Source: Candidatus Rokuibacteriota bacterium (GTDB lineage Bacteria; Methylomirabilota; Methylomirabilia; Rokubacteriales; CSP1-6). Taken from it: a stretch of 12,282 nt of DNA. Each line of letters starts with the position of its first letter. Position 1 is the stretch's first letter. This document shows positions 1 through 966 of this stretch, piece by piece. Both the position numbers and the translations under genes were made by a program. The notes beneath the pieces are model-generated. The model had not been told where the DNA came from. It searched no databases and worked only from the letters and a program-made list of their open reading frames with translations. The DNA lies in assembly GCA_016201575.1 (NCBI GenBank), contig JACQCN010000292.1, forward strand, positions 1-12,282. Direction: 5' to 3'.

Positions 1-295
1 CGATCGAGACCCCCAGCACCTCCGCGTTCAGCGCCTCGAACTTCTTGCTGTCATCCCGGTACCGGGTGAACTCCTGTGTTCACCCCGGGCTGTCGGCCTG
101 GATGTAGAACGCGACGACCACGGCGTCCCGGCGGGCGAGCACGGCCGAGAGCGTCACGGGCTTGCCGGCCTGGTCCCGGAGCGTGAACTCGGGCGCGCGG
201 TCACCCACCGCGAGCGGCGTGTCGCGCCCGACGGCCGGCGCGCTCAGCGTCACCACCACCGCGAGGACCGCGAGGAGCAGGAGGAGCCGGCTCAC
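1..295 (-). CDS. Selenocysteine peroxiredoxin (AhpC/TSA-redoxin family), exported, 5' part only
   Basis: Probable thiol/selenol peroxidase that reduces H2O2 or organic peroxides. The start is GTG at 295-293, overlapping the stop of the upstream PDO gene by 4 nt (GTGA). Residues 1-23 are a basic-then-hydrophobic signal peptide or anchor (VSRLLLLLAVLAVVV...SAPAVG), so the enzyme should act outside the cytoplasm. The redoxin fold follows: AVGDRAPEFTLRD at 29-41, then VAFYIQADSPG at 61-71. An in-frame UGA then stands where the family has its peroxidatic Cys (PGCT). Reading continues in frame as TQEFTRYRDDSKKFEAL and ...EVLGVSI, which is normal peroxiredoxin sequence, to the window edge. UGA is therefore read as Sec72. 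Standard gene callers would stop here and miss it. A resolving Cys would lie beyond the window. Nonsense mutation is the alternative, but the exact Cys position and the intact downstream frame argue against it. Confidence 0.85.
51..69 (-). promoter_or_regulatory. Candidate bacterial SECIS hairpin of the peroxiredoxin gene
   Basis: Counting the U of UGA as nt 1, nt 14-32 fold as follows: UCA pairs with UGA, one A bulges on the 3' side, and CCCG pairs with CGGG under a GUAC apical loop at nt 21-24. A stem 10-20 nt downstream of UGA, with a loop starting in G and holding U, fits the known bSECIS pattern recognised by SelB. I folded it by eye and ran no energy calculation. Confidence 0.55.
80..82 (-). 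other. In-frame UGA (Sec72) at the peroxidatic position of the peroxiredoxin
   Basis: The codon on the minus strand is TGA, between GGG (Gly71) and ACA (Thr73). The motif PG-U-TQE aligns with PG-C-T-x-E of the bacterioferritin-comigratory/AhpC peroxiredoxins. Selenocysteine peroxiredoxins with this replacement are a known bacterial selenoprotein family. Confidence 0.85.
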
Positions 296-966
296 GCCGG
301 CGCCTGCCCGTCCGACTCCACCGCCTCCAGCACCTTGCGCAGGAACTCGCGCTCGGGCAGCGCGCCCTCGAACTGCACCCGGTCGTTGATCACGACCTTG
401 GGCACGGCCATCACGCGGTACTTGCGCGCGAGGTCGGGGAACTCGCCCGCCTCGACGCAGTCCGCCCGGACGTGCGGCGAGGCGACCGCCATGTGCTGCG
501 CCAGGCGCACGGCCCGGGGGCAGTACGGTCAGGTCGGCGTCGAGAAGACCTGGATGTGGACCGGCTCCGGCAGCTCCTCGAGCGCGGTCCGCGTCTCGGC
601 CGTGAGCGCCGGCTCGCCCGTCGACGCCACGATGATCGCGTCGATCAGGTTCGTGAACTCGTAGCCCGCCGGGATCCCGAAGAAGCGGATGCCGTAGTCG
701 CGGGCGCCCTCGACCGCGATCGCGGGCACCTCCTCGACCCCGTAGGCCTCGGCGCGCTCGCGATCGATGACGGGATTGAGCACCTCGACCGAGATCTTGT
801 CGGAGAGCTCCGAGACCTCGCGCACGAGCTGCTCGTTCTGGCGGCACAGGTCTCCGGCCACCAGCTCCTGCGAGAAGACGACGAGCTTCACGGGACCGCC
901 GATCTTCTCGAACTCCTTGCGGACCGCGGCTTGATCGCTGGCTGTCAGGATGGGCATGACACTCAT
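292..966 (-). CDS. Selenocysteine protein disulfide oxidoreductase, two thioredoxin folds (glutaredoxin-like)
   Basis: A 224-residue thiol:disulfide oxidoreductase made of two thioredoxin folds, probably cytosolic because no signal peptide is seen. ATG at 966-964 overlaps the stop of the upstream TPP-enzyme gene (ATGA); Met4 is an alternative start. In the N-terminal fold the usual CxxC is GDLC (residues 38-41), so only Cys41 remains; cis-Pro is at 81. The C-terminal fold holds VHIQVFSTPT-U146-PYC149-PRAVRLAQHMA. UGA thus stands for the first Cys of CPYC, and normal sequence continues (DLARKYRVMAVPKVVIN, second cis-Pro; EGALPE) to a TGA stop at 294-292. Its likely job is to transfer electrons to a partner such as the peroxiredoxin gene that overlaps its 3' end. 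Conventional annotation would split it into two fragments. The two-fold architecture, length and second active site fit the family; Sec reading is inferred. Confidence 0.87.
488..513 (-). promoter_or_regulatory. Candidate bacterial SECIS hairpin of the PDO gene
   Basis: Counting the U of UGA as nt 1, nt 19-44 fold by eye as follows: GCC pairs with GGC, AU bulges on the 3' side, GTGC pairs with GCAC, and a 10-nt loop (nt 26-35) begins with G and contains GG and U. Distance and loop content fit bSECIS rules. A competing fold, TGCGC with GCGCA over a CTG loop, exists in the same segment. Confidence 0.5.
529..531 (-). other. In-frame UGA (Sec146) in the UPYC active site of the PDO
   Basis: TGA on the minus strand lies between ACC (Thr145) and CCG (Pro147) and is followed by TAC TGC (Tyr, Cys149). 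It takes the place of the nucleophilic Cys of a CPYC motif, and the frame stays open for 78 further codons of recognisable family sequence. Cys-to-Sec at the attacking position of a CxxC is the classic selenoprotein pattern. Confidence 0.87.

Follow-up and report, generated by a model that had tools for sequence, protein, structure and literature searches.

The window analysed here, a stretch of 12,282 nucleotides that makes up the whole of contig C380 in a Candidatus Rokuibacteriota genome estimated at 77% completeness, carries overlapping genes for a protein disulfide oxidoreductase (PDO) and a peroxiredoxin on its minus strand, and in both of them the codon at the catalytic position is an in-frame UGA. 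Sequence comparison makes us nearly certain that both are predicted correctly as selenoproteins, and it is very probable that the two genes form one operon. As an overall frame we consider it fairly probable that these are two selenocysteine (Sec) genes in one operon whose products reside in two compartments and are not joined by a direct relay. In the view that we favour, the two proteins are translated together and serve as two branches of a Sec-based defence against peroxide.

The PDO and peroxiredoxin genes

The features of the locus are listed in Table 1. The PDO frame, read from translation of the minus strand, opens with ATG at 966 and closes with a UGA terminator at 292-294, while the peroxiredoxin frame opens with GTG at 293-295 and exits the contig at its first bases. 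The four-nucleotide overlap named in the preliminary description of this DNA is confirmed, as is its placement of a UGA at the catalytic position of each gene. Its reading of an adjacent gene pair stands as regards the overlap and the two UGAs, but the peroxiredoxin is not a complete gene, being cut by the contig end.

Table 1. Positions of the PDO and peroxiredoxin features in the window
Feature	Positions	Strand	Remarks
Peroxiredoxin gene, first 98 codons	1..295	minus	AhpC-TSA, AhpE/PrxQ-like; contig end cuts gene
Peroxiredoxin bSECIS-like hairpin	52..68	minus	GUAC loop; spacing 17 nt as in PDO
Peroxiredoxin UGA codon, predicted Sec	80..82	minus	Peroxidatic position, SPG-U-TQEF, residue 72
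Signal-peptide-like N-terminus of peroxiredoxin	227..295	minus	VSRLLLLLAVLAVVVTLSAPAVG; end approximate, by eye
GTGA overlap	292..295	minus	PDO terminator UGA and peroxiredoxin start GUG
PDO gene	292..966	minus	224 aa, one predicted Sec (residue 146), tandem thioredoxin folds; TIGR02187 (PDO_seleno_TRX)
PDO bSECIS-like hairpin	501..517	minus	CCGGGC-CGUGC-GCCUGG; apical loop 17 nt past UGA
PDO UGA codon, predicted Sec	529..531	minus	C-terminal UPYC site (TPT-U-PYC), residue 146
Lone Cys of PDO N-terminal CxxC site	844..846	minus	Residue 41; alignment: CQYC in P. furiosus PDO

The folds of both proteins were settled by sequence matches to solved structures. The whole PDO belongs to TIGR02187 (263.8 bits, curated cut-off 185), and the P. 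furiosus PDO (1a8l) aligns to its residues 6-216 (E 1.6e-47), with UPYC in the window protein where P. furiosus has its C-terminal CPYC. For the single-Cys site in the N-terminal half the sequences of relatives were also consulted. Archaeal-type PDOs are defined by two CxxC sites in the excerpted text of PMC7465337, and the window protein, with UPYC and one N-terminal Cys, is not of that type.

The peroxiredoxin fragment matches PF00578 (AhpC-TSA) with 61.1 bits against a cut-off of 26, and AhpE is the best solved relative of the family profile (E 1.7e-31); a wider protein search (338 hits, best 120 used) served for names only. With respect to the PxxxTxxC motif, Thr or Ser is found at -3 in 12/12 sequences and Pro at -7 in just 2/12, and a full-length relative (P0004) stays at 69.5 bits against NCBIfam PrxU (NF040737), whose cut-off is 270. 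The part present in the window has one predicted Sec and no Cys. A Cys after the Sec is absent in 13 of the 14 peroxiredoxins found paired with a PDO, the window copy being readable to the contig end only, and L051 has one.

Decoding of the UGA codons

The source genome contains a tRNA-Sec (72.4 bits, above the gathering score, anticodon tca (UCA)), selB on the same contig as that tRNA (368.8 bits, over cut-off), a selA-like ORF beside them that was named by eye, and selD (335.4 bits, over cut-off), within which lies one in-frame TGA. Of the 57 genomes in the family of the window, 51 have a selB above its cut-off and 46 have a tRNA-Sec.

A search of 95 genomes of the phylum (E <= 1e-20) gave 52 that bear a PDO. 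The match contains a TGA in 51 of these and a TAA or TAG in none of the 52. Where the site was read directly (30 sequences and 6 more), U is present in all 36; the remaining 15 of the 51 are known from the TGA count alone. Eight matches have a second TGA, which is the terminator in every case. All 14 PDO-adjacent peroxiredoxins carry UGA at the peroxidatic position, and homologues with Cys exist for both genes. A pN/pS of 0.28 downstream of the PDO UGA shows that protein constraint persists past this codon. The preliminary description had staked its claim on a Sec machinery in the same genome and on relatives free of random stop codons, and both are borne out, the latter for the PDOs. The one PDO lacking a TGA, in G023 (L076:3948-4601, minus strand), has Arg at the Sec site (TPTRPHC); in this genome, which is 78% complete, no selB reached its cut-off and the search for tRNA-Sec at E 1e-9 gave nothing.

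Conserved hairpins downstream of the UGA codons

The PDO hairpin spans bases 14-30 after the UGA and is paired in 180/180 cells of an alignment of 30 sequences. In the six fourfold codons from +4 to +9 the third base is kept in 177/179 cells, and the synonymous difference pS is 0.022 for the hairpin codons compared to 0.447 for codons +12 to +65. Mean codon entropy is 0.26 over the seven codons scored between +3 and +10 versus 0.94 over 50 others (permutation p 1e-5), where the range was picked after the hairpin had been seen and codon +42, outside the range, is equally frozen. There is no covariation signal in the pairs of this hairpin because five of the six are invariant. Against Rfam the window gave a single match, which at 18.5 bits falls far short of its gathering score of 49.

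According to the available part of PMC13188914, a bSECIS has a loop of 3-9 nt, a stem of 4-16 bp, a spacing of 16-37 nt, G in the first two loop positions and an energy of <= -7.5. The PDO hairpin lies within these limits (6 bp stem, 5 nt loop, 17 nt spacing, -8.9 kcal/mol). The peroxiredoxin hairpin is paired in 70/78 cells over 13 sequences, compared to at most 65.4% of cells when it is slid; its loop, stem and spacing are within the limits, and the contiguous stem without bulges, at -4.9 kcal/mol, is short of the energy limit. Fit to the model was rejected as standalone proof: because the window is rich in GC and 59 of its 231 TGAs pass the model as well, the evidence lies in the conservation of the hairpins rather than in the fit. 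Of the two genes, the PDO has the stronger evidence of this kind.

Distribution of the pair within the phylum

The peroxiredoxin of a pair in G033 was used as query against the same 95 genomes (E <= 1e-24), 16 of which matched. The 14 best matches all lie directly downstream of a PDO in one gene arrangement. Thirteen of these genomes belong to the family of the window and one, G094, to another family within the same taxonomic order; together they cover 10 genera and 2 families. The genome search for the pair that the preliminary description had proposed thus finds it adjacent in 14 of the 52 PDO-bearing genomes, with UGA in 14/14 peroxiredoxins, and within the limit of E 1e-24 a peroxiredoxin neighbour was not found in the other 38. 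Paired and unlinked peroxiredoxins are separated by a narrow gap in score (98.5 to 95 bits). Below it come the unlinked matches, which have Cys in G007 and G019, whereas those in G094 and G047 are paralogues with Sec.

The four-nucleotide overlap recurs in eight of the 14 pairs, in one case only if CTG is taken as the start, and the two genes are separated by a small ORF in G045 and G047. The paired peroxiredoxins of 11 named genomes form a single clade (support 100/99). Divergence of the PDOs is correlated with that of the peroxiredoxins (r 0.57, Mantel p 1e-4), a correlation that is also expected from shared species history. Some of the paired peroxiredoxin copies look damaged: in G052 the frame is broken ahead of the Sec codon, and in G051 there is an internal gap.

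Several of these loci show further features. At L033 and L026 a small ORF lies between PDO and peroxiredoxin, and at L024 one follows the PDO; its start overlaps the end of the PDO gene in the letters ATGA, and its product begins MTWSD or MTWTD and reads LPRFGVPT up to a UGA, after which SREEPKD is conserved in 3/3. It possibly encodes a third, membrane-anchored small selenoprotein, and it reaches the cut-off of no NCBIfam model. Downstream of the PDO at L016 (G011) are apparent remnants of a decayed peroxiredoxin copy. At L013, L014 and L027, where the peroxiredoxin is absent, the PDO is followed by a gene with the motif FAYGTLMRG, similar pieces of which occur at further loci, and which resembles a gamma-glutamylcyclotransferase.

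Relatives outside Rokubacteria

In named genomes 415 loci of the peroxiredoxin family were confirmed and 80 were kept, of which 78 are Sec and 2 Cys forms. A PDO adjoins the peroxiredoxin in 11 of the 80, all from Candidatus Rokubacteria or Rokuibacteriota, and in 0/69 of the others (among L118-L188), which are mostly from Acidobacteria and also from Myxococcota and further groups. The unlinked proteins are Sec forms in 67/69 cases, and many have a signal-like N-terminus. A second Cys near the C-terminus is present in 67/69 unlinked proteins versus 0/11 PDO-linked ones; in five unlinked proteins read in sequence it lies 99 residues past the Sec. Two members of this unlinked group, L127 and L118, were scanned and pass no NCBIfam cut-off, so automatic annotation may cut such genes at the UGA. 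A search for common neighbours around the 69 unlinked genes gave no recognisable shared redox partner, and the representative of the widest neighbour cluster (13/69 loci), which is the one inspected, resembles the C-terminal portion of another peroxiredoxin.

PDOs were found outside the phylum in 18 of the 50 genomes searched, taken from the 69 with unlinked peroxiredoxins. The match contains TGA in 16 of the 18, one of the 16 also having a TAA. Among ten of these loci that were read, eight have TPTUP and two TPTCPYC (the Cys orthologues L202 and L204), Acidobacteria having both Sec and Cys orthologues; such a peroxiredoxin neighbour is absent at 10/10.

Predicted location of the two proteins

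All 13 readable paired peroxiredoxins and none of 30 PDOs have a signal-peptide-like N-terminus. The best 12-mer hydropathy is 2.05-3.60 in the 13 peroxiredoxin N-termini, the window copy reaching 3.60, compared to <= 1.67 in the 30 PDO N-termini. Export was called from hydropathy and by eye with hand-chosen peroxiredoxin starts, and with automatic start choice 48 of the 80 peroxiredoxins from named genomes pass a hydropathy mark of 1.6. The preliminary description had noted the puzzle of a PDO without and a peroxiredoxin with a signal peptide; the puzzle is real, and it counts against the relay which that description had inferred.

The PDO is probably a cytosolic thioredoxin-like reductase acting via its single C-terminal UPYC site, and the peroxiredoxin an exported one-Sec peroxidase of the AhpE/PrxQ type that lacks a second Cys. 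Without a second Cys, its oxidised Sec would need another thiol or selenol molecule as reductant. Because the two proteins seem to be on opposite sides of the membrane, we propose a path via a membrane carrier, in which electrons would pass from a cytosolic donor (PDO or thioredoxin) to a carrier of the CcdA/DsbD type, then to an envelope thiol protein and finally to the peroxiredoxin. The role of the operon would be the joint production of both proteins.

As to candidate carriers, DsbD_TM proteins occur in 55 of the 57 family genomes; the window's own genome, 77% complete, gave no DsbD_TM match. In both other genomes of the genus, G033 and G032, a paralogous Sec-peroxiredoxin lies just upstream of a DsbD_TM gene, an arrangement that was noticed by eye and carries no chance estimate. 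These paralogues, with their DsbD_TM genes, are at L196:1135-2535 and L197:1060-2535 and have FTPTUTTEV and a signal-like start. The DsbD_TM neighbour scanned (L196) passed no NCBIfam cut-off, and calling it 'CcdA-like' is our reading of PF02683. Elsewhere, a DsbD_TM-like membrane protein at L198:2060-3055 (minus strand) has an in-frame UGA at CVPU and a Sec-redoxin nearby on the opposite strand, and TGA is also seen inside the DsbD_TM matches of G006, G007, G051 and G052, the last two being under the Pfam cut-off.

That the PDO is in fact linked to the peroxiredoxin across the membrane is no more than a tentative possibility, and less likely still is its strictest form, a Sec-to-Sec path from cytosolic Sec-PDO over a CcdA-type carrier to the exported one-Sec peroxiredoxin. 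On this stricter version the second Cys would have been lost and the PDO neighbour gained on the branch of the paired peroxiredoxins, and the loss would make the peroxiredoxin dependent on delivered electrons.

Could the two genes simply be expressed together? A shared transcript would then answer the same stress, and envelope thiols unconnected with the PDO would reduce the peroxiredoxin. We give this about an even chance: none of the 69 non-Rokubacterial members of the peroxiredoxin family has a PDO neighbour, and none of the ten non-Rokubacterial PDO loci read has such a peroxiredoxin beside it. On the other hand, within the phylum the 14 top-scoring peroxiredoxins are all PDO-adjacent over 10 genera and 2 families, and the unlinked matches rank below them, although the step is small (from 98.5 to 95 bits) and the query came from a pair.

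The reading of the preliminary description, in which the PDO hands electrons directly to the peroxiredoxin within one compartment, is improbable. It draws on the S. solfataricus PDO, which in the excerpts of PMC7465337 reduces Bcp peroxiredoxins and owes its thiol-transferase activity mainly to the C-terminal site that the window PDO has retained, on the translational coupling of the two genes, and on the paired peroxiredoxins being without the second Cys that 67/69 unlinked ones have, which implies a partner. The partners of such a relay would share one compartment, however, and by hydropathy the signal-like segment is on the peroxiredoxin only; since the N-termini differ in this way, a direct relay would need an unusual location of one partner. 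Nor is the missing second Cys proof of a relay, because the unlinked Rokubacterial Sec-redoxins L107 and L108 and the DsbD_TM-adjacent L196 and L197 lack it too. With export-like N-termini in 13/13 paired peroxiredoxins, no peroxiredoxin neighbour found in 38/52 PDO-bearing genomes and a PDO neighbour at 0/69 loci outside Rokubacteria, the direct path is not supported; what endures of the 'dedicated relay' is two Sec genes, a conserved order, coupling and the precedent of PDO-peroxiredoxin systems.

Finally, that the UGAs are true stops in truncated or decaying genes, or assembly errors, has very little in its favour beyond the default meaning of UGA and the apparently decayed or damaged copies at L016, G052 and G051, and we rejected it in view of the TGA in 51/52 PDO matches (36 of them were read, and there it occupies the catalytic site), the protein constraint past the UGA, the synonymously frozen hairpin, the Sec machinery of the genome and the existence of Cys orthologues.

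Comparison with known systems

Both selenoprotein families are already known; their combination in this pair is new. TIGR02187 with UxxC and Prx with TxxU are listed as selenoproteins in the available part of PMC13188914, TIGR02187 also appears as a selenoprotein family in that of PMC9312934, and the excerpt of PMC1794560 names an 'AhpF N-terminal domain' selenoprotein in Carboxydothermus and Symbiobacterium. The window PDO resembles this TIGR02187 or 'homolog of AhpF N-terminal domain' family, as excerpted there, by its score over the cut-off and its Sec in UxxC, and differs in that its N-terminal site is down to one Cys and that it is coupled to a Sec-peroxiredoxin.

In S. solfataricus, an NADPH-Tr-PDO system reduces Bcp1, 3 and 4 directly; the same excerpted review describes PDOs as exclusive to thermophiles (PMC7465337). 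The likeness to the window is a PDO together with a Bcp-type peroxiredoxin and retention of the C-terminal PDO site, whereas that system, as excerpted, is Cys-based and the window pair has predicted Sec at both sites and an export-like peroxiredoxin.

AhpE, a one-Cys enzyme with solved structures (MT2298/Rv2238c), shares with the window peroxiredoxin a single catalytic residue and is its best profile match, but has Cys in place of the predicted Sec. AhpE is not known to carry a signal peptide. Its reductant is mycoredoxin or mycothiol according to PMC8945050.

Two-gene selenoprotein clusters of Prx with a SelW-like protein and of Prx-like with an AhpD-like protein are described in the excerpts of PMC13188914. 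They too consist of neighbouring selenoprotein genes for redox proteins; judged against those excerpts, the window locus is set apart by its PDO partner and by one export-like protein. The Sec-peroxiredoxins of Acidobacteria and Myxococcota belong to the same family as that of the window and differ by the second Cys (67/69) and the lack of a PDO neighbour. In a limited search of partly available texts, no mention of a PDO-peroxiredoxin selenoprotein pair was found.

Rokubacteria are assigned to the phylum Methylomirabilota. The locus adds a conserved two-selenoprotein operon in this uncultured lineage, for which groundwater is named in some record titles. The excerpted PMC13188914, citing its reference 66, mentions that 63 selenoprotein genes are predicted in one genome of Methylomirabilota. 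Our survey further indicates that Acidobacteria and other groups have a large family of Sec-peroxiredoxins (78/80 loci Sec), and the PDO-peroxiredoxin pair makes it testable how exported selenoenzymes get re-reduced.
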